64,000 nucleotides of DNA from the NCBI GenBank assembly GCA_944372525.1, contig CALVZL010000021.1:55924-119923 (forward strand). The letters are read 5' to 3'. Below are positions 40,167 to 59,542 of this stretch, piece by piece; the first letter of the stretch is position 1; each line of letters opens with the position of its first letter. The translations under genes and the position numbers were made by a program. The DNA is from an uncultured Clostridia bacterium (GTDB lineage Bacteria; Bacillota; Clostridia; Christensenellales; Borkfalkiaceae). The notes under the pieces were generated by a model. It searched no databases. It was not told the origin of the DNA and was given only the letters and a program-made list of their open reading frames with translations.

Positions 40167-40640
40167 TCAGGAGAAAAACACGACGGGAATTTGTCTTTTC
40201 CGCGCATACGCCACGGTATATGCCGTTCCTCCGCCGTTTTTCATGCAATAGGCAAAGAGAACGTCCGCATGGTCTACCATCTCGCGATTTCTTGCGAGAT
40301 AGCATCCCGTAAAATAATGAGAAAAGATCACCCGTTTTTCGTCGCACAATTCGAGCAAACGGCGATATTCCCGTTTGTCTTCTCTCGAAAATCTCTCTTC
40401 CTGTCCCAAAAAAGGAATATACGCCTCCAATCCGACCCGATATCTTCCGGAGAGGTCCGTCAGACAGGAGAGTGCCGCCAGATCGAATCCCAGCGCCATT
40501 CCGCACAAAAACCGATCGCAACCCGCCTCAATCAGCTGTTCCAACCTGTCGCAGAGCGCGTTACGGTCAAAATCGGGCGGAAGCGTTCGATGTCCCGTGA
40601 TCGCGCAGGTCTTTCTCGGTTCATACTTCAGATAATTCAT
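40167..40640 (-). CDS. YpsA/DUF1273-like SLOG-family protein
   Basis: 157 residues with a Rossmann-like fold. Motifs match the DUF1273/SLOG group: CAITGHRTLP near the N-terminus, DRFLCGMALGFDLAA (nucleotide-derivative binding loop) and ARNREMVDHADVLFAYC near the C-terminus. Relatives are proposed to bind nucleotide-derived ligands. B. subtilis YpsA affects cell division. It overlaps the rsmG stop by 4 nt (ATGA), so translation is coupled. Confidence 0.8.
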   Translation of the reverse strand: MNYLKYEPRKTCAITGHRTLPPDFDRNALCDRLEQLIEAGCDRFLCGMALGFDLAALSCLTDLSGRYRVGLEAYIPFLGQEERFSREDKREYRRLLELCDEKRVIFSHYFTGCYLARNREMVDHADVLFAYCMKNGGGTAYTVAYARKRQIPVVFFS

Positions 40641-41338
40641 ACGATCGGATCTTTTCTCTCCTTTCCCCTCCCTCTGGGATAGAGAGAAGGCGTATGTCTG
40701 ATCTTTTTGACCACGGCAAGCGTCCTGCTTCCGTATCCTTGAGGAAGTTCGTAACGGTAGATCTGCTCCGTTTTTCCTCCCAATGCCTCAATTGCCCGTT
40801 CCGCTTCCGAGAATTCTTCCTCTTCTCTTCCCTTATAGGCGATCATCCTTCCTCCGAGCCGCAGAAAGGGAAGACAATATTCCGTCAGCGTATTCATGCG
40901 CGCGACCGCCCGTGCACAACAGACGTCGAACTTCTCCCGAAACGCGGCATCCCTCGCTCCCTCCTCTGCGCGGAGACAGCACACTTTCAACTGTCCGGGA
41001 ACCAGCCGTTCCGCCGCAATCTGAAGAAACTCGCATTTTTTTCTCACGCTTTCGAAGAGGGTAAACCGAAGATCTTTTCTTGCGATGCACAGCGGAAGAG
41101 AGGGAAATCCAGCCCCAGATCCGATCTCGGCACACGCTGCTCCCTGCGGAAAGAGGAATTCTCCCGCAAGCGAATCGTAAAAATGTTTATAATATACGTC
41201 CTTTTCTTCTGTCACCGCCGTCAGATTAAACTTTTTGTTGTATTCCAGCAGCAGAGCATAAAAAAAAGCAAACGCTTCCTTTTTTTCCCCCGTCAGCCAT
41301 TCCGACGCACGCAGAAAGCCCGGAAATTTTGCTTCCAT
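40637..41338 (-). CDS. rsmG: 16S rRNA m7G527 methyltransferase
   Basis: 233 residues. Family blocks: KKFNLTAVTEEKDVYYKHFYDSL (about 35-57), EIGSGAGFPSLPLCI (SAM motif, about 70-84), LFESVRKKCEFLQ, and FDVCCARAVARMNTLTEYCLPFLR with the conserved RAVA. A positively charged tail ends it. Often found close to oriC, as here. A -10 box 6 nt before the ATG predicts a leaderless transcript. It is the first gene on the left arm. Confidence 0.95.
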   Translation of the reverse strand: MEAKFPGFLRASEWLTGEKKEAFAFFYALLLEYNKKFNLTAVTEEKDVYYKHFYDSLAGEFLFPQGAACAEIGSGAGFPSLPLCIARKDLRFTLFESVRKKCEFLQIAAERLVPGQLKVCCLRAEEGARDAAFREKFDVCCARAVARMNTLTEYCLPFLRLGGRMIAYKGREEEEFSEAERAIEALGGKTEQIYRYELPQGYGSRTLAVVKKIRHTPSLYPRGRGKERKDPIV

Positions 41339-41344
41339 AATTTG

Positions 41345-41373
41345 ATTATATCACAATCCGTCCGCTTCCGCAA
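41345..41373 (-). promoter_or_regulatory. rsmG promoter, predicted leaderless start
   Basis: Minus strand TTGCGG (41368-41373), 17-bp spacer, perfect TATAAT (41345-41350), then CAAATT (6 nt) and the rsmG ATG. Confidence 0.78.
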
Positions 41374-41409
41374 GTCTTCCTGAAAAAAAGAACGCGCGGA
41401 AAAGAGAAA

Positions 41410-41735
41410 AAATAAGGTAGAATTGTGGAAAAAAGGACAAGTTGTTATCCACAATGTGGAAAACACTGTGGATAATTCTTTTTTTTCTTTCCTTTCTCCT
41501 CGTTTTTTCTCTTTTTTCCTCCCTGTCGTCCGACGGCGTTTCCTTTTTTCTCCACACAATTCCCGTTTTTCCACTTTGTTTCCACAAAAGAATCCACACC
41601 CGCAATTTCTCAAAAACAAAGGAAATTGCTTGAAAAATTCTCTTTTTTGGGCTATAATAGAGGAGAAAAAAAGTTGTCGACAATTCCACCGACACTATTA
41701 CTATTATTATATTTATTTTTTATAACAATACCACA
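41410..41735. other. Chromosome origin region (oriC) with DnaA boxes and DnaA-trio
   Basis: Perfect DnaA boxes lie at 41445-41453 (TTATCCACA) and 41467-41475 (reverse). One-mismatch boxes lie at 41424-41432 and 41455-41463 (TTTTCCACA, reverse), with further degenerate ones at about 41547-41600. A weaker box, TTGTCGACA (41674-41682), is followed by a GC cluster and then CTATTACTATTATTAT (41695-41710), five DnaA-trio triplets (read 3'-GAT/AAT-5' on the bottom strand), and an AT-rich stretch to 41727. This is the layout of the B. subtilis unwinding element. Gene orientation switches here. dnaA is not adjacent. Confidence 0.87.
41630..41658 (+). promoter_or_regulatory. dnaN promoter inside oriC
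   Basis: Plus strand TTGAAA (41630-41635), 17-bp spacer, perfect TATAAT (41653-41658). The leader crosses the DnaA-trio region, so DnaA bound there could influence dnaN transcription. Confidence 0.8.
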
Positions 41736-41749
41736 ACAGGAGGAAACCA

Positions 41750-42856
41750 ATGAAATTTATCTGCGACGGCCTCTCTCTTTCGGAAGCGGTGATGAAGACC
41801 AGCAAAGCGTGTGCCGTGCGTACCACTGCCCCCGTCTACGAATGCATCAAGCTCAGCGCATTCGGCGAATCGGTCACGCTGCTTGCAACGGACGGAGAAC
41901 TTTCTATTCAGAAATCCCTTCGGGCGGAAGTGTTTGAAGAGGGAGAGACCTGTGTTCCGGGAAAATTGTTTGCCGATTTTGTTGCAAAACTTTCCGAACT
42001 TGAAGTGACCGTGGAAACTTCGGAACGGGGAATGGAGATAAAATATTTGGATTCCGGCACCTTCATTCAGGTCATCGATGCGGCGGAATTCCCCAAGATC
42101 AATACCGAGATCGGGGAAAACAGTTTTGTCATGAAGAAGAGAGATCTGAAAAAGATCATTGCCGAGACGGCATTCTGTTGTGCGCAGGACGATTCCCGTC
42201 CCATTCTCAAAGGATGCCTTTTGGAGCTGGGAGAAAAGCTGGAAATGACTGCGCTCGACGGATATCGTCTTGCTGCGGCTTCCGCTCCGATTTTGTCCAA
42301 GACGGGAGAACAAAAAATCGTCTGTCCCGCGCGCACGCTGAACGAAATTTCCAAGATGATCACGGAGGAAGAAGGGGAGATCGTCGTCTATACGCAGGGA
42401 GGGATGCTGCTTGTCCGTTCGGAGGGGACGCTTGTCGTTTCCCGCCTGTATCAGGGAGAATTTATTCGGAAAGAGAGCGTCGTGCCCCGTGCTTTTACGA
42501 CGGAGACGCTGATTTCCCGCACAGAACTCATTTCCAGTCTGGAGCGGGCGCTTATTCTCATCCGAGGAGACAAAAACAACCTCGTCACACTGGAGATCGA
42601 CGCGAAGACCGTGCGCATTTCTTCCCTTTCTGAAGTGGGAACGCTGTCCGAAAGCGTACAGGCGCAGACAGAGGGAAAGGAACTGACGATCTCACTCAAT
42701 GCGAAATTTTTGCTTGACGCGCTGCGGGCGCTCGAAGAAGAACGGATAAAACTTTCGTTCAACGGCGCGATATCTCCTTTCATTTTGCAAAATGAAGAAG
42801 AAAAAGAGAATCTGTATCTGATTTTGCCCGTGAGAAATACACAGCAGACGGCATAA
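41750..42856 (+). CDS. dnaN: DNA polymerase III sliding clamp (beta subunit)
   Basis: 368 residues, three-domain clamp. MKFICDGLSLSEAVMKTSKA starts it, FAVSQDDSRPILKG-like FCCAQDDSRPILKGCLLEL is in domain 2, and the C-terminus LILPVRNTQ is close to the family end (LVMPMRL), part of the protein-binding groove. AGGAGGAAACC precedes the ATG. It is the first gene right of oriC and is followed by rpmH, an unusual order because dnaA normally precedes dnaN. Confidence 0.96.
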   Translation: MKFICDGLSLSEAVMKTSKACAVRTTAPVYECIKLSAFGESVTLLATDGELSIQKSLRAEVFEEGETCVPGKLFADFVAKLSELEVTVETSERGMEIKYLDSGTFIQVIDAAEFPKINTEIGENSFVMKKRDLKKIIAETAFCCAQDDSRPILKGCLLELGEKLEMTALDGYRLAAASAPILSKTGEQKIVCPARTLNEISKMITEEEGEIVVYTQGGMLLVRSEGTLVVSRLYQGEFIRKESVVPRAFTTETLISRTELISSLERALILIRGDKNNLVTLEIDAKTVRISSLSEVGTLSESVQAQTEGKELTISLNAKFLLDALRALEEERIKLSFNGAISPFILQNEEEKENLYLILPVRNTQQTA

Positions 42857-42860
42857 TTGC

Positions 42861-42889
42861 TTGACGAAGAGAAGAAAAATCTCTATAAT
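42861..42889 (+). promoter_or_regulatory. SigA-type promoter for rpmH-rnpA-yidD-yidC-jag
   Basis: Plus strand TTGACG (42861-42866), 17-bp spacer, perfect TATAAT (42884-42889), 32 bp before rpmH. Confidence 0.82.
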
Positions 42890-42921
42890 CAAATAAAAAA
42901 AACGGACGGAGAAATAATATT

Positions 42922-43056
42922 ATGAAGAGAACCTATCAGCCCAAAAAGAGACAGCGGAGCAAAGTACACGGATTCCGCAAGAGAATGGCGAGTGCCGGGG
43001 GAAGAAAAGTTCTGAAAAACAGAAGAAACAAGGGAAGAAAACATATTTCCGCATAA
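42922..43056 (+). CDS. rpmH: 50S ribosomal protein L34
   Basis: 44 residues, the exact family size: [20 protein letters not shown] at the start, [15 protein letters not shown] in the middle, ending KGRKHISA. Extremely basic. GGAG lies 10 nt before the ATG. First gene of the rpmH-rnpA-yidD-yidC-jag cluster. Confidence 0.98.
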
Positions 43057-43065
43057 CGGCAGGAC

Positions 43066-43398
43066 ATGAAGTATCTGCGTCTGAAAAACAAAAAGGATTT
43101 CGAGAAAGTCCTCCGAACGGGGAAGCGGTCGTACGGAAGATCGCTGATGATCGTCTTTCTTCCTTCCCGAGAAGTGAAGATGGCGGTTTGTGTGGGGAAA
43201 AAATACGGAAAGAGCGTGAAAAGAAATCGGATCAAACGGCTTTTGCGCGAGGCATTCCGCAATTGCGGCGAGCAGTTTCGCCCCGGTTCTTATCTTCTCA
43301 TTCCGAAAGTAGCCGAAGAATATTCTTTGAAGCAATTCAGGCGGGATCTCGTAGCCGCAGGGAAAAAGGACGCGCTCTTTGAAACTCCGATTGCGTAG
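43066..43398 (+). CDS. rnpA: Ribonuclease P protein component
   Basis: 110 residues, basic. Binds the RNase P RNA and helps cleave tRNA 5' leaders. The RNR motif SVKRNRIKRLLREAFR (about 49-64) and start LRLKNKKDFEKVLRTGKR are diagnostic. It follows rpmH by 9 nt. Its end overlaps the proposed TTG start of yidD. Confidence 0.95.
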   Translation: MKYLRLKNKKDFEKVLRTGKRSYGRSLMIVFLPSREVKMAVCVGKKYGKSVKRNRIKRLLREAFRNCGEQFRPGSYLLIPKVAEEYSLKQFRRDLVAAGKKDALFETPIA

Positions 43399-43681
43399 TC
43401 TGCTTGAAATCAACGGTCGTTTTCTCAGAAAAACGGTCTTTCGCCCTTATCTGAAGGGGTTCTGCATTCGGGCGATCTGCTTTTATCAGAAGTATCTCTC
43501 CGGGCATCGCTGTCCCTATGTTCCTTCCTGCTCGGAATATACCAAACGGTGCATCAACAATTTGGGCGTGGGAGCGGGGATATTGTTCGGAATGTGGCGG
43601 ATCCTGCGATGCAATCCTTTTACCAAGGGAGGCATAGATCCTGCGCCTGAAAATTTTTTTAAGGCGCGATGGCTTCGCTGA
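43379..43681 (+). CDS. yidD: Membrane protein insertion efficiency factor YidD
   Basis: About 100 residues from TTG at 43379; the start is uncertain and a later TTG at 43393 is possible. The family core is FCIRAICFYQKYLSGHRCPYVPSCSEYTKRC (residues ~28-58), with GMWRILRCNPFTKGGIDPAP after it. The Cys residues in CPYVPSCSEY and RCNP are conserved. A small membrane-associated protein that assists YidC insertion. It overlaps rnpA by 20 nt under the long start. Confidence 0.9.
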   Translation: MKLRLRSLLEINGRFLRKTVFRPYLKGFCIRAICFYQKYLSGHRCPYVPSCSEYTKRCINNLGVGAGILFGMWRILRCNPFTKGGIDPAPENFFKARWLR

Positions 43682-43703
43682 ATGAAATAACAGGACGAGA
43701 GCA

Positions 43704-45143
43704 ATGGAATCGATACTGAATGCGGCTTCTGCCGCAATTTCTATGATGGAAGAGGGGTTTTATATCGACCTCAACTGGCTGGGTCGGTTTATTCGGCTGC
43801 TCATTGAGGGCGTCGGATCCGTCGGGTTGGGCGTCATTGTCTTTACGCTGGTCCTCAAAGCGATCACGACCCCGTTCGATATCTATCAGCGCGTCGTCAT
43901 GCGCAAACAGACGCTCATCATGCGCAACATGAAGGGCGATCTGGAAAAATTGCAAAAGCAATATGCCAACGACAAGGTGATGTACAACAAAAAGATGATG
44001 GAGCTGCAGAAAAAGAACGGCTACAGCATGTTCGGGGCGTGTCTGCCCATGATCATCTCCTTCGTCATCCTCATGGTTGCGATCGCCGCGTTTCAGTCCT
44101 ATTCGCAGTATGCCAATCTTTCCATGTACGAACAGATGGCAAAGGCCTATAACGGTGCCTTTATCGAATATACCGTCGACGGAAAGGACTATCATTTCGG
44201 GGGGGAAGACGAGCTCACGATCGGCTGGGACGTCTCCGCTCCTCATTCCGAAACAGAGGACGGAGAAACGATTGTCTATACCGTCTATCAGGACGGCGAG
44301 ATCACGAGAATGCGGGTGGAATCGCAGTCTCCCGAAAAATATATCTTCTATACCTACACCCTTTATGCGGAGGGCGAAGGCGAAATCGTGCGCAATTATT
44401 ACGTCAACGTCGACAAGCTCTATACGGAGCAGTCCGACGCGGAAATCAAAGCGGCAATCGACGCCTATGTCAACGGCACGGAGGAGTCGGAAGGCGTGAG
44501 CCTCGAGACAGCCTGTGCCAACTATGTGCGCGATCTCGGCGCCACGGCGGCGGCGAAGTGGTTCCGCGAGGAAAACGATCCGAGTTTCCTTTGGATTAAA
44601 AACGTGTGGTATCCGGACGTCGTGTACAGCCATCCCATTCAGGATTACGAGAGTTTTTCCGGATCCGTCTCTAAAAAAATTCTTTCCGAGAACTGGGAGG
44701 GAGAGAAATCCATTTCCGACGTGTTCAGTGAGACCGAATACAACAATCTGACCTATTGTCTTTCGGGGGAAAAATCTCAGCCCAACGGATATTTTATCAT
44801 GATCGTTCTCACGATCGGACTCATGGTCCTCTCGCAGTTTATCGCCATGCGCAGCCAAAAGGAAAGCAGTCAGTACGGAACGCTGGACGGGCAGGGCGCC
44901 AAAACGCAGAAAATGATGATGATCATGCTGCCGCTCATCTACGCAATAACCGGATTCATGTGGACGGCGGCGTTCTCGATCTACATTGCCGTGAGCAGCA
45001 TCATCGGAATTCTCGTAACATTGCTGTCCAATCTTTTTATCGGGATCGTGTTTAAAAAACGGGAAGAGGAAGAGATTCGCAAACAATATTCTCATCAAAC
45101 GCCTGCATCCCGCGGGAAAAAGGACGCGAATAAGAAGAGTTAA
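43704..45143 (+). CDS. yidC: Membrane insertase YidC with an enlarged extracytoplasmic domain
   Basis: 479 residues, against about 250-280 for usual Gram-positive YidC. TM segments are at about 33-58, 108-131, 363-381 and a pair at 403-450. The normal short loop between the second and third is replaced by about 230 residues (132-362) rich in Tyr, Asp and Glu, with the usual FLWIKNVWYPD block embedded at 295-305. The hydrophilic groove position normally held by Arg appears as Lys52 (LVLKAITTPF). No lipoprotein signal is seen. The tail is Lys-rich. It inserts membrane proteins, with or without SecYEG. Confidence 0.92.
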   Translation: MESILNAASAAISMMEEGFYIDLNWLGRFIRLLIEGVGSVGLGVIVFTLVLKAITTPFDIYQRVVMRKQTLIMRNMKGDLEKLQKQYANDKVMYNKKMMELQKKNGYSMFGACLPMIISFVILMVAIAAFQSYSQYANLSMYEQMAKAYNGAFIEYTVDGKDYHFGGEDELTIGWDVSAPHSETEDGETIVYTVYQDGEITRMRVESQSPEKYIFYTYTLYAEGEGEIVRNYYVNVDKLYTEQSDAEIKAAIDAYVNGTEESEGVSLETACANYVRDLGATAAAKWFREENDPSFLWIKNVWYPDVVYSHPIQDYESFSGSVSKKILSENWEGEKSISDVFSETEYNNLTYCLSGEKSQPNGYFIMIVLTIGLMVLSQFIAMRSQKESSQYGTLDGQGAKTQKMMMIMLPLIYAITGFMWTAAFSIYIAVSSIIGILVTLLSNLFIGIVFKKREEEEIRKQYSHQTPASRGKKDANKKS

Positions 45144-45175
45144 GCGTAAAATATACGCATTCAAAGAGGAAAAAT

Positions 45176-46087
45176 ATGGAAAACAAGGAAATTTTCAGCG
45201 GAAAAACGGTAGAAGAAGCCGTTGAAACGGGGCTTTCGGAACTCGGTCTCGCTCGCGATGAAGTGGAAATCGAAGTGCTCGATCAGGGGAAAAAGAAACT
45301 GTTCGGATCAGTTCCCGCGCAGGTGAAACTCGTGCGCAAAAGGAAACTGACGGACGGCGAACGCGCAGTGGAATTTTTGGAAGGGTTGCTCGAACGCATG
45401 GACAAGAGCGTCTCGGTGTCTCTGGCGGAGGAAGACGAGCGCATCGTCATTCTTCTGTCGTCGGAGACGGAAAAAGAGATGATCGGAAGACGCGGAGAAT
45501 TTATCGACTCGTTGCAGGTGCTTGCGGGCGCCGTCGCCAATACGGGCAGAAGAGAGTATAAGCGCGTCGTCGTCGACTGCGGAAATTATCGCGAAGAACG
45601 GGAAGAGACCTTGCGCAGGCTTGCGCTGAAACTTGCGGCAAAGGCGGTTCGTCTGGGAAAACGGGTGCGGTTGGAGCCCATGAACCCCTATGAGCGGCGC
45701 ATCATCCACTCTGCTTTGGCCGACAATCCCGAAGTCACAAGCAAGAGCGAGGGAAAAGAGCCGATGCGCTTTGTCGTGATCCTTCCCAAAAACATGCGCA
45801 CGGCGGGCAAGAAGGATCGCGCCTCGGGCGATCGCAGACAGGACGGAAAAGGCGGTTATCGCAAAGATCGCGGCGCCGGACGCGACAGTCGTTACGGCGG
45901 CGAGAGAAACAAACCCTATCCCAAGCGGGAATTGCCCAAAGAAGATACCCCGCAGTCTTCGGGAACAAGTCTCAAACGGGAGTCTTCCTCCGGATACCGC
46001 AAGGGAAGTTTCAGCGGGTTCTTCGGAACCTATTTGGGAAATTCCAAGGAAGAAAGCGAGACGGCGGAAGAGAAAACGGAAGAATGA
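45176..46087 (+). CDS. jag: Jag/KhpB RNA-binding protein
   Basis: 303 residues: Jag-N domain (about 3-50, with GKTVEEAVETGLSELGL and KKLFGSVPAQVKL), KH domain (about 75-130, with EKEMIGRRGEFIDSLQVL as its GxxG loop), R3H domain (about 140-205, ending NPYERRIIHSAL) and an Arg/Gly/Lys-rich tail (about 213-290; GDRRQDGKGGYRKDRGAGRD). It binds RNA and affects cell elongation in Gram-positives. It follows yidC by 32 nt, with GAGG before the ATG. Confidence 0.92.
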   Translation: MENKEIFSGKTVEEAVETGLSELGLARDEVEIEVLDQGKKKLFGSVPAQVKLVRKRKLTDGERAVEFLEGLLERMDKSVSVSLAEEDERIVILLSSETEKEMIGRRGEFIDSLQVLAGAVANTGRREYKRVVVDCGNYREEREETLRRLALKLAAKAVRLGKRVRLEPMNPYERRIIHSALADNPEVTSKSEGKEPMRFVVILPKNMRTAGKKDRASGDRRQDGKGGYRKDRGAGRDSRYGGERNKPYPKRELPKEDTPQSSGTSLKRESSSGYRKGSFSGFFGTYLGNSKEESETAEEKTEE

Positions 46088-46744: not shown

Positions 46745-47365
46745 TTATTTTTTTTCAAATGAAAAAAACTGAACGGGAGTGACAACTTTCTTGTTTTGAT
46801 TTATCAAGCAGCGGCTTTCGGCAGGATCTGCCTGTTCAAGAGTTTCTAAATAGGAACATAGGGCGCGCGCGATCGTATCGGACATGGCGTATACCGTGGA
46901 CAGCCGTATGCAGTTGAGCAAGGAAAGCGCATATTCGGAACGTTTTGCGACAATCCCGAGAACGGAGACGTCCCCTATTTTCCCCAAACGTTTGTTCGCC
47001 CCGGAGCCGGGGCGAAGACCGCCTTCACAGAACTTGACCAAACCGATTTCCGATTCTTCTCCTACGGCAGCGTCGACTGCAATGATCTTTGAAGCGGGAT
47101 GCGTTTTTCGCAGAAACGTCTCTGCGTAACGCACTTCTTTTGCGGTGACTGGCGAGCGCAGCGTTCCGTAGAGATAGCATTTACGACAGCCGAGACGGCG
47201 CAGGAGGGTTCCCGTCACGGGACCCAGACTGTCTCCGATGACAAGATCGCTTCCGATGCAGAGAACGACGGGCGGAACGGCGGGTTTGCCGAGCAGACGG
47301 GTCAGCGCAGCGGTTGCGCCTGTCTCCGCCATGGAGTTGTAACAGTGAAACGCGTAATGTGACAT
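46745..47365 (-). CDS. yyaC: YyaC-like sporulation-associated protein (DUF1256)
   Basis: 206 residues. Resembles YyaC of B. subtilis, a putative spore protease-like protein related to the GPR or hydrogenase-maturation fold. Key stretch: VVLCIGSDLVIGDSLGPVTGTLLRRLG (about 33-59), with IIAVDAAVGEESEIGLVKFCEGGLRPGSGANKRLGKIGDVSV following. In B. subtilis yyaC also lies near the origin beside parB. Its presence suggests a sporulation-capable ancestor. AGAGGA lies 4 nt before the ATG. Confidence 0.87.
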   Translation of the reverse strand: MSHYAFHCYNSMAETGATAALTRLLGKPAVPPVVLCIGSDLVIGDSLGPVTGTLLRRLGCRKCYLYGTLRSPVTAKEVRYAETFLRKTHPASKIIAVDAAVGEESEIGLVKFCEGGLRPGSGANKRLGKIGDVSVLGIVAKRSEYALSLLNCIRLSTVYAMSDTIARALCSYLETLEQADPAESRCLINQNKKVVTPVQFFSFEKK

Positions 47366-48306: not shown

Positions 48307-48436
48307 GTATCCAAACAAAAGGCAAAAAAATCAAAGGGGCAACTCAAGGCTAAAAAGCAACAAAACACGGAGACAAGACAATAAATTGTTTTTCAAACCA
48401 AAAAAGCTTGCGTTTTATCTGATATTTTGCGTTCGG

Positions 48437-48452
48437 TGTTTCACGTGGAACA
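48437..48452. other. parS-like site 1
   Basis: TGTTTCACGTGGAACA matches the bacterial parS consensus TGTTTCACGTGAAACA at 15 of 16 positions. It lies in the 431-bp gap before ftsH, 2.2 kb from parA and about 7 kb from oriC. Probable ParB loading site. Confidence 0.88.
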
Positions 48453-48479
48453 CCGAAAAATCGGAAATTTTTCTTTTGA

Positions 48480-48495
48480 CGTTTCACATGAAACA
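48480..48495. other. parS-like site 2
   Basis: CGTTTCACATGAAACA matches the parS consensus at 14 of 16 positions, 43 bp from site 1 and in the same orientation. Probably a weaker ParB site. Confidence 0.78.
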
Positions 48496-48613
48496 TTTTT
48501 CATAAAAAATCAGCTTGCGCAAGCAGGAAAATCCCCCAAATTTAGCAAATCGCCCCATTTTTGCGAAAACTTTGTGAGATTTATGAAAAAAGAAAAACAT
48601 TTTGTGGAAACGC

Positions 48614-48642
48614 TTGCTTTTAAGTTGCAAATATGCTACAAT
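48614..48642 (+). promoter_or_regulatory. Probable ftsH promoter
   Basis: Plus strand TTGCTT (48614-48619), 17-bp spacer, TACAAT (48637-48642), 54 bp before the ftsH start. Confidence 0.68.
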
Positions 48643-48696
48643 AATTCTCATAAAACTGTGCAAACTATCGACAGCACAACCAGAAAGGAGTTTAAT

Positions 48697-50628
48697 TTGA
48701 GCAAACCAGTTAAAATTGTCATTGCAATTTTGATCACGGCTGTCATTGTCGTCGGACTATATTTTATGGTATCCAAACAGATCAGCCAGAGGAAAGAGCT
48801 TTCTTACGACGAATTCCTCGATTACGTGGAAGATCAGGACGGAACCATTCCCGACGATCAGCAGATCAAAAAGATCGTGATCAACGGCTACAAGATGTAC
48901 GGATACACAAGCACAACGAGCGGCACTTACGCCTATACGACGATCGGGCCCAATCAATACGATTCCAATTCGCCCACGGTCTCGGCGTGGATCGAACAGT
49001 ACAATATCAAAATCGAGTTCCGTGACCCCAACGCCGGCTCGAACTGGAGCACGATCATTTATATTGCGGTGCTTGTTGTGGGAATTGTCGCATTTTTCCT
49101 CGTATTGCGTACGACAAGCGGCGGAGGCGGAAAGATCATGAACTTCGGCAAGACGAAGGCAAAGGTCTCCACCAATCTCAAGGTGCGGTTTTCCGATGTT
49201 GCCGGAGCCGAGGAGGAAAAGGAAGAGCTTGCCGAAGTCGTCGAGTTTTTGAAGAGTCCGAAAAAGTTTGCCGATTTGGGTGCGAGAATTCCCAAGGGCG
49301 TTTTGTTGGTCGGGCCTCCGGGAACCGGAAAGACGTTGTTCGCCAAGGCGGTTGCAGGCGAGGCGGGCGTGCCGTTCTTTTCGGTGAGCGGTTCTGACTT
49401 TGTTGAGATGTACGTCGGCGTGGGAGCATCGCGTGTTCGTGATCTGTTTGACCTTGCTAAACGCAATCAGCCTTGCATCATCTTTATCGATGAGATTGAT
49501 GCGGTCGGCCGCCAACGCGGAGCGGGGCTGGGAGGCGGGCACGACGAACGGGAGCAGACTCTCAACCAAATTCTCGTTCAAATGGACGGGTTTGATACCA
49601 ATGAGGGCGTCATCGTTATGGCGGCGACCAACCGTGCAGACATCCTCGACAATGCTCTGCTTCGCCCGGGCAGATTTGACCGTCAGATCTACGTCCATCT
49701 TCCGGACGTGAAGGGCAGAGAAGCGATTTTGAAAGTTCACGCTCGAAACAAACCGTTGGCTCCGGATGTTAACTTCAAAACAATCGCTCGCATGACGAGC
49801 GGATTTTCGGGGGCGGATCTTGCCAACCTGCTGAACGAAGCGGCGATCCTTGCGGCTCGGGCAGGAAAGCGGATGATCGGCAATCTGGAACTTTATGAAG
49901 GAATTAACAAAGTGATCATGGGCCCTCAGAAGAAGAGCCGCGTGGTGACGGAAGCCGAAAAACGGAGTACGGCCTATCACGAGGCGGGGCATGCGATCTT
50001 GGCAAAACTTTGTCCGTACAACGACAACGTGCAGGAAGTTTCGATCATTCCCCGCGGCATGGCGGCAGGCTATACGCTGACCCGACCGGAAGATGACAAC
50101 GACCGCTACACAGTTAAGAGGCTTAACGATTATATTTGCATGGTGCTGGGGGGCAGGGTTGCCGAAGAGATCGTCATTCAGGACGTTTCGGCAGGCGCCT
50201 CGGACGACATCCGGAAGGTGACGCGGATGGCGCGCAAAATGGTGACCGAGTGGGGCATGAGTGACCGTCTCGGACCCATCGCATACGGAAGCGACGGTCC
50301 CGTCTTTTTGGGCAGAGATTACGAAGAGCGGAATCTCTACAGCGAAGAGACGGCGGGGATCATCGACGAAGAGGTCAACAAGATCGTGTCGCGGGAATAT
50401 GCGCGGGCGAAACAGCTTCTCACGACCAACCGCAGCATTCTCGACAATATGGCGCGGGTGCTCGTGGAGCGGGAGACCATTTATACGGAAGAAGTCGACA
50501 TGCTCATGAAGGGCGCGGATTGGGAAGAAGTCCTCAAATATATGGAGGAACACGACAAAGGCGTTCCCGACGATCCGTTCGGAATCAAACGTTCGTCTGC
50601 GGGCAAGCAGACGGAGCCTGACGCCTGA
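48697..50628 (+). CDS. ftsH: ATP-dependent zinc metalloprotease FtsH
   Basis: 643 residues from TTG 48697 (AAAGGAG, 6-nt spacing). The longer frame to 48427 crosses the parS sites and promoter and is rejected. Layout: TM1 (about 4-24), extracytoplasmic domain, TM2 (about 108-130), AAA+ domain with GPPGTGKT (206-213), Walker B IIFIDEID, pore [33 protein letters not shown], and the zinc protease motif HEAGH (about 430). It degrades misfolded membrane proteins and regulators. Its position between the origin genes and parAB is unusual. Confidence 0.96.
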
Positions 50629-50682
50629 AGGCTGTGTTTGGACGCGTCCGTGTACGGGAGAGTATGAAAAAGAGGTAAACGT

Positions 50683-51456
50683 ATGGGAAAAATCATATCA
50701 TTTTCCAACCAGAAGGGCGGGGTCGGAAAGACGACGACCTGTGTAAACATGGCGGCGTATCTGGCAAAAGCGGGAAAGAAAGTGCTGCTCGTCGACATCG
50801 ATCCGCAGGGCAACGCGACCACGGGGCTGGGATTTTCCAAGAGCGCGCTCAAAAAGTCCATCTACAGCGTACTCATCGAGGGCGAGGACGTTGCAAATAA
50901 CGTTTTGCCCACGCAGCTTCCCAAGATGTTCATTTTGCCCGCGAACATCGATCTTGCCGGTGCGGAAGTGGAGCTCGTCTACAAGAAAAACCGAGAGAAG
51001 GTGCTCAAAGGCGCGCTGGACAAGGTCAAGGCGGATTACGACTATATTCTCATCGACTGTCCTCCTTCTTTGGGGCTGATTACCATCAACGCACTGGCGA
51101 GCGCGGACAGCGTGCTCATTCCCATACAGAGCGAGTATTATGCGCTGGAGGGACTGAGTCAGCTCATGAATACCGTGTCGCTGGTTCGCCAGCATCTCAA
51201 CAAGGCGCTGAAGGTCGAAGGCGTCGTGATCACGATGTATGACAGTCGTTCCCTGATCAGCAGACAGATTGCGGCGGAGATCCGCAAGTATTTTACAAAA
51301 AAGCTGTACGAGATCGTCATTCCGCGCAACATTCGGCTTTCTGAGGCGCCCAGTCACGGGAAACCTATTTTGTTGCACGATCCCCGTTGCGCAGGCGCGC
51401 GGGCCTATGCGGCGCTGACAGAAGAATTTCTCAAGAAGGAGGGCCAGGGAGCATAA
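50683..51456 (+). CDS. parA: Chromosome-partitioning ATPase ParA (Soj)
   Basis: 257 residues. Deviant Walker A KGGVGKTT (11-18) with the signature Lys, LLVDIDPQGNAT (Walker A'), YILIDCPPSLG (Walker B) and IPIQSEYYALEGLSQL. Works with ParB on parS to separate origins and, in sporeformers, links to Spo0A. It overlaps parB by 1 nt (TAATG). Confidence 0.95.
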   Translation: MGKIISFSNQKGGVGKTTTCVNMAAYLAKAGKKVLLVDIDPQGNATTGLGFSKSALKKSIYSVLIEGEDVANNVLPTQLPKMFILPANIDLAGAEVELVYKKNREKVLKGALDKVKADYDYILIDCPPSLGLITINALASADSVLIPIQSEYYALEGLSQLMNTVSLVRQHLNKALKVEGVVITMYDSRSLISRQIAAEIRKYFTKKLYEIVIPRNIRLSEAPSHGKPILLHDPRCAGARAYAALTEEFLKKEGQGA

Positions 51457-52349
51457 TGGCAACGGCAAAGGGACTCGGAAGAGGGCTTTCCGCGCTGTTC
51501 AGCGATACGGAGGAAGCCTACGAAAACGCACAGGGAGAAGCCGTTTCGGGAGTGGCGGAGCTCGATCTTTCCAATATTTATCCCAATCCCGATCAGCCCC
51601 GCAAGGTATTCGACGAAGGGGCGATGGCGGATTTGACCAATTCGGTTCGGGAACACGGGGTCATCAGCCCGATCGTCGTGAACCGCAATCCGGACGGAAC
51701 GTTCATGATCATTGCGGGGGAGCGCCGTTATCGTGCGGCAAAGGAGGCAGGACTGCAGACCATTCCCGCCGTCGTGAAAGAATACGGGGAGCGGGAGATC
51801 CAGGAGATCTCCCTGATCGAAAATCTGCAGCGCGAAGACCTCAACCCCATCGAAGCGGCAGAGGGGATGAAACGGCTGATGGAGGAATATTCGCTCACGC
51901 AGGAAGAGCTGGCGGAGCGGCTGGGCAAATCCCGTCCTGCGATCGCCAACACGCTGCGGCTGCTGTCTCTCGACGGCGAAGTTGTCGACCTTGTGCGCGA
52001 GGGCAAGCTTTCTTCGGGGCATGCAAGGACGCTCGTCCCCGTTCCCAAGTCCGAACAGGGAGAGCTGGCGCGGGAATGCGTGAAAAACGGATGGTCGGTG
52101 CGCGAGACAGAACGCGCGGTGCGGCAATATCTTAATCCGCCCGAAGTGCTTGCGCGCGAAAAAGAGAAGAAGACGGCGGTCGCGAACGCGGAGCTCACCC
52201 GCTTTGTCGAGCGGATGCGCACGACCTTTCGGACCAAGGTCTCCCTCATCGGGACGGACAAAAAGGGACGGATCTATATCGATTATTATACGAGGGACGA
52301 TCTTGACCGGATCTGCGAGATCCTCGATATCGTCGATCGGCAGGAATGA
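51456..52349 (+). CDS. parB: Chromosome-partitioning protein ParB (Spo0J)
   Basis: 297 residues. Starts MATAKGLGRGLSALFSD, the ParA-activating N-terminus. The CTPase domain carries GERRYRAAKEAGL (about 89-101) and ISLIENLQREDLNPIEAA; the HTH is LTQEELAERLGKSRPAIANTLRLL (about 148-171); the C-terminal dimer domain ends near LDIVDRQE. Binds parS, probably the sites at 48.4 kb. Confidence 0.95.
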   Translation: MATAKGLGRGLSALFSDTEEAYENAQGEAVSGVAELDLSNIYPNPDQPRKVFDEGAMADLTNSVREHGVISPIVVNRNPDGTFMIIAGERRYRAAKEAGLQTIPAVVKEYGEREIQEISLIENLQREDLNPIEAAEGMKRLMEEYSLTQEELAERLGKSRPAIANTLRLLSLDGEVVDLVREGKLSSGHARTLVPVPKSEQGELARECVKNGWSVRETERAVRQYLNPPEVLAREKEKKTAVANAELTRFVERMRTTFRTKVSLIGTDKKGRIYIDYYTRDDLDRICEILDIVDRQE

Positions 52350-55664: not shown

Positions 55665-55692
55665 CTGAAATATTATGAGAGGAGGAATTTCC

Positions 55693-56784
55693 ATGCAAGA
55701 AAATTTCGCCGCAGCTTCGGAAGCCGTACCCGCGGAGACGGTTGCCGTTGAAGGATCGGTCAAACCGAAAAAAGCGAGGAAGCCGATCAACCAGCAGAAG
55801 CTGCAGGACAATCTTTGGGGCTGGGTGTTCTGTATTCCGCTGATCGTGGGCACGATTTGGTTTGTCTACATCGCCTTTATCATGGCGCTGTTGCTCTCCT
55901 TCACCGCGTATAACTCGATCAAGGGAGACATTTGGGAGACGCTCTTCCATCTCGGGGACAACATCCATCCGGACGGGGCGTTCTACTGGTACAAGTACGC
56001 GTTCACTTATGAGATCGGCGGCGATTTCAAGATGAACGAGATGGGCGCGTACCTCTTTAACACGGTGTTCTACATGATCGGAATTCCGATCGGCATGATT
56101 CTCGCGGTGTTCTTCGCGGTCTGCATGTCGCGCGACATCAAGGGCGGAAACGTGTTCCGCGTGCTCTACTATTTCCCCTGCGTCGCGAGCACGGTCTCCA
56201 TCGTGTACACCTTCAAGCTCATGTTCTCGACGACGGGCGTGATGAACCAGCTGCTCGGGCTGGACGGCTTCCAGTGGCTGGATCTGACGGGCAACACGAC
56301 GCTCACGTGGAACCAGTTGGCGGGAACGTCGACTCCGGGGGCATTCATGAACGATCCGTTCTGGTGTCAGGGCTTCTTCTCCAAACTCGTCATCATCATC
56401 ATGTCGGTCTGGAAAGGCCTGGGCGGCACGATCATCCTGTACATAGCGGGTCTGTCCGGCGTCAACGCCGCGACGAAAGAGGCCGCGGAGATCGACGGGG
56501 CGAACGGATGGCAGATCTTCTGGAAGGTGACGATGCCCGATCTGTATCCCACAATCTTCTATAATATCGTCACTGCCGTCATCGGCGGCATGCAGATCTA
56601 TATGGAACCCGTCTTGCTCGTCGGCGAGCGGTCGTCGACCTCCGGTTACGTCTCGCTCATCTGGGGCTACGGTGTCAATCAGAGCAAAGTTTCGCAGGGC
56701 GCCGCATACGGTATGATCTTGGCGATCATGATCTTTGTGCTGACGATGTTCCAGTTCTGGCTGGATTCGCGGAAATCTGACTGA
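55693..56784 (+). CDS. ABC sugar transporter permease (MalF-type)
   Basis: 363 residues with six or seven membrane segments (first at about 45-68). The EAA loop KEAAEIDGANGWQIFWKVTMPDLYPT contacts the ATPase. The Pro/Lys-rich N-terminus is cytoplasmic. GGAGGAATTTCC precedes ATG 55693, so an in-frame start at 55675 is less likely. It is the first of two permeases; no ATPase gene lies nearby, so a shared MsmX-type ATPase encoded elsewhere probably powers it. Confidence 0.92.
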   Translation: MQENFAAASEAVPAETVAVEGSVKPKKARKPINQQKLQDNLWGWVFCIPLIVGTIWFVYIAFIMALLLSFTAYNSIKGDIWETLFHLGDNIHPDGAFYWYKYAFTYEIGGDFKMNEMGAYLFNTVFYMIGIPIGMILAVFFAVCMSRDIKGGNVFRVLYYFPCVASTVSIVYTFKLMFSTTGVMNQLLGLDGFQWLDLTGNTTLTWNQLAGTSTPGAFMNDPFWCQGFFSKLVIIIMSVWKGLGGTIILYIAGLSGVNAATKEAAEIDGANGWQIFWKVTMPDLYPTIFYNIVTAVIGGMQIYMEPVLLVGERSSTSGYVSLIWGYGVNQSKVSQGAAYGMILAIMIFVLTMFQFWLDSRKSD

Positions 56785-56798
56785 GGAGGGGAGAGAGT

Positions 56799-57830
56799 AT
56801 GAATAACAACGCTGAAAACATCAAAACCGCTCCCGAGGAAGAAAAACAGTATTCCGCATTCCGCTATGCGCTCGGCGCGATCCTTGCGTTCTTCGGATTT
56901 TCGAGCAAGACGCATCGCGCGAGTAAAAAGCGTGCGAAGATGGTGGGCGACATTGCGACGTACATCATCCTTTTGTTCGGATCCTTCCTCATGGTCTATC
57001 CCTTCTGGTGGATGATCGCCGGTTCCTTTGCGAATACGCATACGGGCGGCTCCACGGGCGACATTCTGCGCCGCATGGTCTGGTGGCCTTCGTTCAGCAT
57101 GCTCGACGAGGGATCCAACGGCGGGCTCTTCCGCAACTACGACGTATTGCTGAATACGGCGTTCACCCGCGTGGTCACGGGATATTCCTTCTGGCGCGCG
57201 CTCATCAACAACCTCATCTATTCCATCGTTCCCGTCGTGGTCGGCGTCATCACATCTGCTTCCGCGGCATTTGCGTTCGCAAAGATAGAGTGGGTGGGCA
57301 GAAATGCGGTGTTCTATTTCCTGCTTGCGGCGATCATGGTTCCCGGACCTTCCATCATGACGACTCAATACGTCATGTACAACGATTTGGGCTGGCGCGA
57401 CAACGGTCTCGTCCTGATCATTCCCGGCTTGTTCGGTTCGATCATGACGGCGTTCTTCATCCGTCAGTTCCTGTTCGGGCTTCCCACCTCCATCATTGAG
57501 GCGGCGAAGATCGACGGCGCGGGATATTTCCGCATCTTTGTCGGATTCATTCTGCCGCTCGCGATGCCGGCGATCATGGCACAGGGGCTGCTGTCCTTCA
57601 TGGGATGCTGGAACAACTACATGGGTTCGTTCATCATGATCCCGCGCAGCAGTCTTTGGATCAACTTGCCGCATGCGCTCGCATTGCTCGAAAACGTCGA
57701 TACGTATGCGCAGGATTATGCCGTCATCATTGCAGGCTCCGTGCTCTGCGTGCTGCCCGTCATGATCTTGTTCGCTTGCTTCCAGAAACTCATCATCGGA
57801 TCGTTGATGCTTACCGGTTCCAAGGAGTAA
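56799..57830 (+). CDS. ABC sugar transporter permease (MalG-type)
   Basis: 343 residues, six membrane segments (first at about 50-68). The EAA loop IEAAKIDGAGYFRIFVGFILPLAMPA (about 222-247) is intact. Partner of the 55693 permease; 14 nt separate the two genes. GGAGG lies 8 nt before the ATG. It resembles carbohydrate permeases of the LplC or AraQ type. Confidence 0.92.
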   Translation: MNNNAENIKTAPEEEKQYSAFRYALGAILAFFGFSSKTHRASKKRAKMVGDIATYIILLFGSFLMVYPFWWMIAGSFANTHTGGSTGDILRRMVWWPSFSMLDEGSNGGLFRNYDVLLNTAFTRVVTGYSFWRALINNLIYSIVPVVVGVITSASAAFAFAKIEWVGRNAVFYFLLAAIMVPGPSIMTTQYVMYNDLGWRDNGLVLIIPGLFGSIMTAFFIRQFLFGLPTSIIEAAKIDGAGYFRIFVGFILPLAMPAIMAQGLLSFMGCWNNYMGSFIMIPRSSLWINLPHALALLENVDTYAQDYAVIIAGSVLCVLPVMILFACFQKLIIGSLMLTGSKE

Positions 57831-57846
57831 AAGCGGAAAATACCCG

Positions 57847-57882
57847 CAAGCGGAGCGTTCTGTTCGCTCCGCTTGATTTTTC
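57847..57882 (+). terminator. Terminator of the transporter operon
   Basis: 11-bp stem CAAGCGGAGCG/CGCTCCGCTTG (57847-57857 with 57865-57875), then ATTTTTCC. Confidence 0.85.
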
Positions 57883-57890
57883 CGCATAAA

Positions 57891-57918
57891 TTGTCTGAAA
57901 AAAGCTTTGAGGTATTGT
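57891..57918 (+). promoter_or_regulatory. Possible promoter of the exported GH43 gene
   Basis: Plus strand TTGTCT (57891-57896), 16-bp spacer, TATTGT (57913-57918). The -10 box ends 7 nt before ATG 57926, so this would also be close to leaderless. Weak boxes. Confidence 0.4.
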
Positions 57919-57925
57919 ATTGTAT

Positions 57926-59371
57926 ATGAAAAATAAAATCAAATGGACGGGGCTTTCGAGCCTTGCGCTCGCGGCGCTTTTGGTCGGGTGTCAGGGCGGA
58001 GGCAGCGTAAATTTTTACGGGTCGGAGGAATGGCTTGCAGCGGGGGAAAACGTTCCCGCGACCGCAGCGGTTCTGCCCGAGTCGGCAGACTACGGGACTC
58101 CCGTGGCGGTTCACGATCCTTCCGTTTTTTACGATGAGGACACGGAAAAATATTATGCGTTCGGTTCCCATTATGCGGTGGCTTCCTCGCCCGATCTCAT
58201 TCAGTGGACGCAGGAAGTGAGCGACGGCGGATTCAGCATGCTCTATGAGACGGGAACATTCACACACAACGGCGTGACCTGGCCGACGGCGCTGCAGGAC
58301 ATTGTGGAGGCGGCGGATGCGCAGAGCAGCATCAACACAACCTGGGCGCCCGACGTGATGAAGATCAACGGACAATATTATATGTATGTATCCGTGACGA
58401 ACGCGTTCGGGAGCGGGCAGTCGGCGATCGGACGGGTCTCCGCCCGCGACGTCATGGGACCGTATTCGGACGGAGAGCTGATCGTCAACAGCGTCGGCAG
58501 CAGCAGTTCGCAGCCCAACTGTATCGATCCCGAGTTGTTTTACGACAAAGAGGGGACGCTCTGGATGGTCTACGGATCTTTCTACGGCGGCATTTATATC
58601 AAGCAGCTCGATGAGACGGGGCTTCCCGTTGAAGAAGGGTTCGGCACCCTTCTCTGGAAGGGCGGCGGCGCCGGCGTCGAGGGTCCGTTCATCTTTTACA
58701 GCGCGGAGACGGATTACTACTATCTGATGGTCAGCGAAGGGTCGCTTTCTTCCAATTATAACATGAGGGTCGTGCGCAGCAAGAACCCCGACGGTCCCTA
58801 TACGGATATTACGGGCGCAAACGTGGCGGAGAGCTACGGTCACGGCAACAAACTTGCGGGAAATTATCAATGGGCGGGGGAATCCATTTCCTATGCGGCG
58901 CAGGGCCACAATTCGGTCATCAAGACGGACGGAAAGTATTTTGTCGTCTATCATACGCGCTACACCGTGAACAGCGGACACAATCTGCAGGTCAATCAGC
59001 TTTATTTCAACGAGGCAGGCTGGCCGGTCCTTTCGCCCAATCGCTATGTCGGCGAGGAGAAGGGCACGGTGACGGCGGAAGAGCTGGCGGGAAATTACGA
59101 TGTGATCGTCCACACCGAAGGCGCTTCGCAGGATTTTGCAAAATCGGTGCAGTATACGCTCGCTGCGGACGGAACGGTGACGGACGCCGAAGGTGCTTCG
59201 GCGGGCAGCTGGACGCTCAAACAGAACTATTATTTTGAGATCACGCTCAATTCCGTGACCTATCGCGGCGTTGTCGCACCCGCATGGTGCAAATACAGCG
59301 CCAAAGGGATCTATTGCATGACGGCGACTTCGGATACGGGGCGTGCCGTATGGCTTAACGCGGCGGACTGA
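57926..59371 (+). CDS. Exported GH43 glycosidase lipoprotein, probable endo-arabinanase
   Basis: 481 residues. Lipoprotein signal with Cys22 (LLVGC). The five-blade GH43 propeller holds the catalytic residues: base Asp64 (VAVHDPSVF), pKa-modulating Asp201 (CIDPELF) and acid Glu252 (GVEGPFIF). GHGNKLAG and AQGHNSVI give the His typical of arabinanases. From about 370 a small beta-barrel domain follows, as in the C-terminal domain of long arabinanases. It likely cuts arabinan outside the cell. A TTG start at 57920 with GAGGT 6 nt upstream is also possible. Confidence 0.87.
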   Translation: MKNKIKWTGLSSLALAALLVGCQGGGSVNFYGSEEWLAAGENVPATAAVLPESADYGTPVAVHDPSVFYDEDTEKYYAFGSHYAVASSPDLIQWTQEVSDGGFSMLYETGTFTHNGVTWPTALQDIVEAADAQSSINTTWAPDVMKINGQYYMYVSVTNAFGSGQSAIGRVSARDVMGPYSDGELIVNSVGSSSSQPNCIDPELFYDKEGTLWMVYGSFYGGIYIKQLDETGLPVEEGFGTLLWKGGGAGVEGPFIFYSAETDYYYLMVSEGSLSSNYNMRVVRSKNPDGPYTDITGANVAESYGHGNKLAGNYQWAGESISYAAQGHNSVIKTDGKYFVVYHTRYTVNSGHNLQVNQLYFNEAGWPVLSPNRYVGEEKGTVTAEELAGNYDVIVHTEGASQDFAKSVQYTLAADGTVTDAEGASAGSWTLKQNYYFEITLNSVTYRGVVAPAWCKYSAKGIYCMTATSDTGRAVWLNAAD

Positions 59372-59386
59372 GCTGCCGAATCGAAC

Positions 59387-59424
59387 AAAAAGGTCTCCGT
59401 TTGTGTCGAAAACGGAGACCTTTT
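59387..59424 (+). terminator. Intrinsic terminator after the exported GH43 gene
   Basis: 15-bp stem AAAAGGTCTCCGTTT/AAACGGAGACCTTTT (59388-59424). Confidence 0.87.
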
Positions 59425-59465
59425 CCAATCTCTTTGCAAAATAAGAAAAAAAGACGTGAGAAGTC

Positions 59466-59494
59466 TTGAAAAAGAGAACGAAAAGGATTATAAT
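59466..59494 (+). promoter_or_regulatory. SigA-type promoter of the second GH43 gene
   Basis: Plus strand TTGAAA (59466-59471), 17-bp spacer, perfect TATAAT (59489-59494), 48 bp before the start. Confidence 0.82.
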
Positions 59495-59542
59495 GGAGAG
59501 GAAGAACAAACGCGGGCAGGACCGCGGAAGGGGAGAGAAGAG

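Follow-up and report, generated by a model that had tools for sequence, protein, structure and literature searches.

A putative chromosome origin between rsmG and dnaN, with dnaA at a distant locus, in Candidatus Gallimonas and its family

Origins described in other bacteria

Clostridial origins are usually bipartite: DnaA boxes lie upstream of dnaA, and the unwinding element between dnaA and dnaN. In Escherichia coli, dnaA and dnaN stayed together. The origins of Firmicutes have been described as conserved around rnpA-rpmH-dnaA-dnaN, and in vitro melting of the Clostridioides difficile origin required both halves around dnaA (PMC7561715). In cyanobacteria, dnaA and dnaN lie apart, and the oriC of Synechococcus elongatus is near dnaN at a skew shift (PMC7198777).

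The locus compared here with these systems lies in a window (the whole 64,000-nucleotide stretch analysed, G000:C21:55924-119923) that is the terminal part of a 119,923-bp contig; the genome, G000, amounts to 1.375 Mb in 40 contigs and is 88.73% complete. It belongs to Candidatus Gallimonas, a genus which we take to be a member of the GTDB family Borkfalkiaceae, order Christensenellales. It is probable, at roughly 85%, that the site between rsmG and dnaN is the chromosome origin of Candidatus Gallimonas species, and that the lineage lost dnaA from the origin before the GTDB family diversified.

Gallimonas resembles S. elongatus and other cyanobacteria in having dnaA and dnaN apart, and its putative oriC, like that of S. 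elongatus, is near dnaN (PMC7198777). Unlike the cyanobacteria, which belong to another phylum, it has a box-trio element before dnaN, a collinear dnaN-rpmH-rnpA-yidD-yidC-jag series and a second fixed block, in which recF diverges from dnaA-mnmG. With the bipartite origin of C. difficile it shares a trio-bearing unwinding element immediately ahead of dnaN (PMC7561715), but no dnaA stands between the box regions, rpmH comes after dnaN and the origin is compact. In E. coli, too, oriC was separated from dnaA by rearrangement (PMC8287927), whereas in Gallimonas the putative origin stayed with dnaN and it was dnaA that left. A dnaN-side origin with dnaA elsewhere is already known, in cyanobacteria, and the clostridial case is a variant thereof. 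A literature search of titles and abstract openings, with most subscription journals outside its scope, returned no treatment of the position of dnaA in Gallimonas, Borkfalkia or Christensenellales and no report of this arrangement in Clostridia.

The region between rsmG and dnaN

The putative oriC is the 411-bp intergenic region at 41339-41749 (31–47% GC in 100-bp windows). Its left flank is rsmG (gidB; 40637-41338, minus strand; TIGR00138, E 3.8e-42), and on its right, on the plus strand, are dnaN for the beta clamp (41750-42856; TIGR00663, 235.4 bits, cut-off 137.65), rpmH for L34 (42922-43056; TIGR01030) and rnpA, yidD, yidC and jag (43066-46087; TIGR00188, TIGR00278, TIGR03592 and NF041568). 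The order from dnaN to jag is kept in relatives. Compared with the canonical Firmicutes order rnpA-rpmH-dnaA-dnaN-recF, the adjacency of dnaA and dnaN is missing, and rpmH is not on the far side of dnaA in divergent orientation. The original prediction had rpmH following dnaN directly in the same direction; the arrangement stands, and only the start of the gene had to be corrected, to 42922.

Concerning the motifs, four TTWTNCACA boxes occur in 52 bp (41424-41475), at 41424-41432 (minus), 41445-41453 (plus), 41455-41463 (minus) and 41467-41475 (minus). The whole window holds eight, while 100 shuffled versions of it gave a mean of 2.09 and a maximum of 5, so that the above-chance box cluster by which a bacterial oriC is recognized is present here. 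Further to the right, the promoter consensus is matched by TTGAAA-17-TATAAT (41630-41658, plus), the putative dnaN promoter. It is followed by the DnaA-box-like TTGTCGACA (41674-41682), with two mismatches to TTATCCACA, which together with the adjoining TTCCACC (41674-41690, plus) is the putative double-strand part of an unwinding element. Then come a 12-nt spacer from TTGTCGACA, five DnaA-trios, CTATTACTATTATTA (41695-41709, plus), and AT-rich DNA up to about 41729. The basal unwinding system has this box-spacer-trio layout, with a DnaA box no more than 16 bp from at least three trios and spacers peaking at 10–13 bp (PMC8287927). The window agrees with that description in its 12-nt spacer and five trios, with a box that carries two mismatches. 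Boxes, a DnaA-trio and AT-rich DNA had been predicted between rsmG and dnaN, and they are seen at 41424-41475 and 41674-41729.

Some 200 bp, holding no gene, separate the two box groups. Instead of two box regions split by dnaA there is a single intergenic region, and rsmG and dnaN seem to enclose one compact origin of about 300 bp. Since the box groups stand so close with no gene separating them, it seems reasonable to see in the region a bipartite origin that has become compact.

The GC skew, set beforehand as a test that could refute the proposal, changes sign at this site, as expected of an oriC: all 21 of the 2-kb blocks of the window up to position 42000 are negative, and all 11 beyond it are positive. 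Among the best 80 of 346 named loci, 51 had 5 kb on each side; the skew rose from a negative left to a positive right flank in 30 of these and was lower on the left than on the right in 43. In many relatives the skew is weak. A scan with the parS consensus gave two parS-like sites (both strands being counted for each), with 0.04 matches expected: TGTTCCACGTGAAACA (48437-48452, minus), without mismatch, and a weaker site at 48480-48495. On the same arm, ftsH (TIGR01241), parA and parB run on the plus strand at 48427-52349; parB exceeds the cut-off of TIGR00180, and parA has ParA-family matches, the best of them, NF041546, below its cut-off. These profile matches agree with the predicted position of parA-parB beyond ftsH on the dnaN arm. 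By the boxes, the unwinding element, the skew switch and parS, the origin is placed at 41339-41749.

Some other features of the window were recorded. The gene for the spore protease YyaC (46745-47365; TIGR02841) lies beside the origin. The left arm has 58–63% GC at 6001-32000, with genes for a P-type ATPase and V/A-type ATP synthase subunits, and the right arm 48–56%. Two ABC sugar permease genes, then two adjacent arabinan endo-arabinosidase-like genes, occupy 55675-61033.

The comparison with relatives was made on 81 loci, the window plus the best 80 of 346 named loci, and on genomes of genus g1, which is Gallimonas. The identity of DnaN to that of the window was 62–73% in the best 80 of 346 named loci, 62–72% in 20 g1 genomes and 38–54% in 20 loci of other genera, and the named loci were treated as Gallimonas because their identities match the g1 range. 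The rsmG-dnaN junction is kept, rsmG being divergent from dnaN in 76/80 named loci (best 80 of 346), and dnaA is found in 0/80 of them (5.7–21.1 kb each). Of the four exceptions, L156 and L171 have the dnaN-jag block inverted, and L182 and L198 have rsmG and a neighbour inverted. Located directly after dnaN and on its strand, rpmH was found in 120/120 family loci (20/20 in g1, 80/80 in the best 80 of 346 named and 20/20 in other genera), 15 of the 20 g1 loci being also among the named ones. In the 20 other-genus loci, from 15 genera, rsmG is upstream and divergent in every case, with a YpsA-like gene between rsmG and dnaN in L207 and a 1.9-kb gap in L209. All 16 genera sampled for the dnaN block have it.

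The motifs are conserved as well. In the 81 loci (window plus best 80 of 346), DnaA boxes numbered 1.89 per 430 bp, versus 0.06 in dinucleotide shuffles. A box, 5–20 nt and trios within 170 bp before dnaN occurred in 75/81, versus 15/1620 mononucleotide shuffles, this spacer being looser than the published 16-bp limit. In the same 81 loci, the stricter run of four [CT]TA occurred in 59, and TTGNNN-16/18-TATAAT within 230 bp before dnaN in 79. The four loci with inversions have all retained a box, a spacer and trio-like repeats ahead of dnaN (4/4). L156 and L171, where dnaN-jag and the box-trio element were inverted in place beside yyaC, are a natural test of the element travelling with dnaN. 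In the 20 other-genus loci the motifs are weaker: within 430 bp, an exact box was found in 11 and four consecutive [CT]TA in 5, and the box-spacer-trio pattern occurred within 170 bp in 10/20 (5/400 in shuffles) and within 600 bp in 15/20. The pattern was not found within 600 bp before dnaN in L207, L209, L210, L220 and L223, and in L207 and L209 there was no DnaA box before dnaN even with one mismatch allowed.

The dnaA locus and its separation from dnaN

As predicted, dnaA is absent from the window. The sole match in the genome is on another contig (G000:C13:16521-17828; TIGR00362, 446 bits, cut-off 343.9), and G000 as assembled gave no second dnaA, although at 88.73% completeness a copy in the missing part is possible. 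According to the NCBIfam matches, recF is divergent from dnaA and mnmG comes directly after it; on the recF side are genes for a PHP-type phosphatase, a VanW-like protein, rplS, YifB and DprA. The same block, recF divergent from dnaA-mnmG, was found in 40 dnaA loci (20 of g1 and 20 of other genera) and in three g31 loci holding both genes, and it is present in all 14 genera sampled for it. The predicted rearrangement of the conserved origin, with dnaA moved elsewhere, is supported by the boxes, the unwinding element, the skew, parS and the presence of dnaA elsewhere in the same genome.

The start region of dnaA was taken as 300 bp upstream plus 30 bp inside the gene. No exact TTWTNCACA was found there in 21 Gallimonas loci, and 3/23 other-genus loci had one. 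With one mismatch to TTWTCCACA, the means were 0.38 in Gallimonas and 0.65 in other genera, the shuffles giving 0.27 and 0.21 respectively; the dnaA start may therefore carry a weak DnaA site. TATAAT was present in the start region in 20/21 Gallimonas loci. That a box-free dnaA promoter is a peculiarity of the family is not supported: of eight relatives with adjacent dnaA and dnaN (L118-L125), four have exact boxes in the 450 bp before dnaA and four do not, so the lack of exact boxes there is not diagnostic.

These results bear on whether the origin could lie at the dnaA locus, or whether there are two origins, the boxes on the dnaN side serving only the regulation of dnaN. A box-trio element in a leader could indeed be regulatory only, and among the families with split genes f83 (by skew) and f61 (by boxes) have the origin by dnaA. 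In Gallimonas such a location is very unlikely, since no skew switch exists near the G000 dnaA (the skew is negative in all blocks read, positions 1-32000 of the 38,615-bp contig C13), the 21 Gallimonas dnaA starts have no exact box, and the skew switch, parS and the trios are all on the dnaN side. It is slightly less probable still that DnaA has become dispensable, with another factor starting replication beside dnaN as it does in some cyanobacteria. There too dnaA left the origin, and dependence on DnaA was lost several times (PMC7198777); but the dnaA of G000 scores above the cut-off of its profile, dnaA was found in 245/250 genomes of the family, and the box-trio element is kept in Gallimonas.

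The separation is not peculiar to the genome of the window, being common to the sampled genera of the family. Both genes were found in 35 of the 37 g1 genomes, and in 0/35 were they on one contig (read by eye); G008 gave no dnaA match, G013 gave no dnaN match, and G029 had dnaN in two pieces. The family search covered 250 species-level genomes with completeness of at least 85%, with dnaA in 245 and dnaN in 237. Distances were surveyed among the best 150 matches listed per gene, where 104 of the 250 genomes appear for both. Among these, dnaA was within 4 kb of dnaN in 0/104, and both genes were on one contig in 18, at 5.7–289 kb from each other. In a class sample of 142 genomes, 139 others than that of the window had both genes, which were within 4 kb in 128 and not in 11; in three of these 11 (G356, G367 and G388) one gene is at a contig edge. 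Among 24 other families of the order, represented by one genome each, 22 had both genes, adjacent in 15 and not in 7 (by eye), including G039 with both on short contigs. In a DnaA+DnaN tree of 54 genomes the family forms two deep branches, each carrying both gene blocks, which makes one ancestral event the simplest reading; the branching among other families is weak, with support of 57–78 at several nodes. The separation of dnaA is old and widespread across the sampled genera of the GTDB family.

An assembly or binning artefact, with dnaA truly beside dnaN and lost at a false join, might be suspected from a metagenome-assembled genome in 40 contigs and from the 35 g1 genomes with both genes, where these never share a contig. 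This explanation has almost no probability. The same rsmG-dnaN junction in 76/80 named loci (best 80 of 346) rules out a join at 41.3–41.7 kb, the dnaA of G019 stands on a 338-kb contig, 115 kb or more from both its ends, with dnaN on another contig, and misassembly is excluded by the single contigs of other genera that carry both genes well apart, in the 18 genomes already mentioned among the matches listed.

Where both genes share a contig, the direction of the fork at dnaA was read from the side of the putative dnaN-proximal origin on which dnaA lies. Within genus g31, dnaA is 5.7–12.2 kb away and co-directional with the fork in 9/11 genomes and head-on in 2/11, while in g27, g32, g37, g38 and g39 it is head-on in 7/7. 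Gallimonas dnaA would lie on the lagging strand in G000, G012, G019 and G028, as judged from skew alone, which had one sign in every block read; around the dnaA of G025 it gives no strand call. Beyond recF, the skew read on the dnaA strand is negative in 16/21 loci, often weakly. In the g31 loci L211, L212 and L222, recF and the divergent dnaA-mnmG come after jag (directly in L211 and L222, about 2 kb later in L212), 6–8 kb from the origin. The g31 layout possibly represents a step before the dnaA block left the origin region.

Other families of Clostridia show related changes. In the genome nearest to the family in the tree (G044, f9; support 69), the skew minimum, trios and five boxes within 600 bp lie between dnaN and rsmG, and dnaA-recF is 39 kb from dnaN; this one genome is like Borkfalkiaceae in the skew minimum by dnaN and the removal of dnaA, and differs in having rsmG on the dnaN strand. 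In the single genome of f18 (G053) recF, divergent from dnaN, replaces rsmG; the skew minimum adjoins dnaN, dnaA is elsewhere, and no exact DnaA box was found in the 450 bp before dnaN. By elimination, G053 alone among 15 other-family dnaN loci has rpmH immediately behind dnaN, 10/15 having given no rpmH match in the stretch covered.

Families f38, f61, f82 and f83 have likewise lost the adjacency of dnaA and dnaN. Unlike in Gallimonas, the origin is placed by dnaA in f83 (G423), where the sign of the skew switches at dnaA but not at dnaN, and in f61 (G331), with four boxes in the 600 bp directly upstream of dnaA. In f82 (G421) the skew changes sign near both genes, and in f38 (G406, G295 and G347), where dnaA kept yidD-yidC-jag and dnaN kept recF, neither side is indicated. 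The opposite case, in which dnaN would have left the origin, exists in Clostridia. As a general rule for the other families, the departure of dnaN was rejected, for only f83 (skew) and f61 (boxes) agree with it, f38 and f82 being indecisive. In G406 (L246, L247), a single 2.76-Mb contig, dnaN-recF is 176 kb from dnaA. L247 also has a partial second DnaA-like match, which may be another AAA protein, some 3 kb from its dnaA; L249 and L257 have a similar one. L258, from a genome of the same order (G383), shows a further rearranged origin region: dnaN and dnaA are neighbours in divergent orientation, and rnpA-yidD-yidC-jag follow downstream of dnaN.

Initiation and its control

If the origin is at this site, DnaA made from the distant locus would bind both the 41424-41475 cluster and the trio-proximal box; its assembly along the trios would then melt the AT-rich DNA ahead of dnaN, as happens in Bacillus subtilis. 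RNA polymerase starting at the dnaN promoter would meet the unwinding element at once. Because that promoter is directly upstream of the element, DnaA bound there may still throttle dnaN. By its position dnaA would have lost the dosage of the origin (hardly so in g31) and, without exact boxes at its start, it may have lost self-repression.

A rewiring of initiation control could be read from this: DnaA feedback would act on dnaN alone, through the leader element, and dnaA would be distant, head-on, box-free, uncoupled in dosage and not self-repressing. We regard this reading as doubtful, and it is weakened by the four of eight adjacent-gene relatives that are also box-free and by the weaker motifs in other genera. 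A better candidate, with a probability not far below even, is a separation without regulatory meaning, in which recF and mnmG simply took dnaA with them. The genes near the origin have a fluid arrangement in this order, where 7/22 other families have dnaA and dnaN non-adjacent, and parAB, recF and rsmG moved too; on the other hand, the dnaN block in all 16 genera, the dnaA block in all 14, and rpmH after dnaN without exception speak against it, with the limit that long conservation alone is no proof of function.

For practical purposes, origin finders keyed to dnaA, and assemblies rotated to the start of dnaA, would mislead in Borkfalkiaceae. The autorepressor model of initiation is possibly valid if, among other conditions, the gene is close to oriC (PMC5835720). 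Were the rewiring true, origin-linked dosage and autorepression of dnaA would be dispensable for the control of initiation. A family of many species from whose origin dnaA would have gone before they diversified would be a natural experiment on the position, dosage and autorepression of dnaA.
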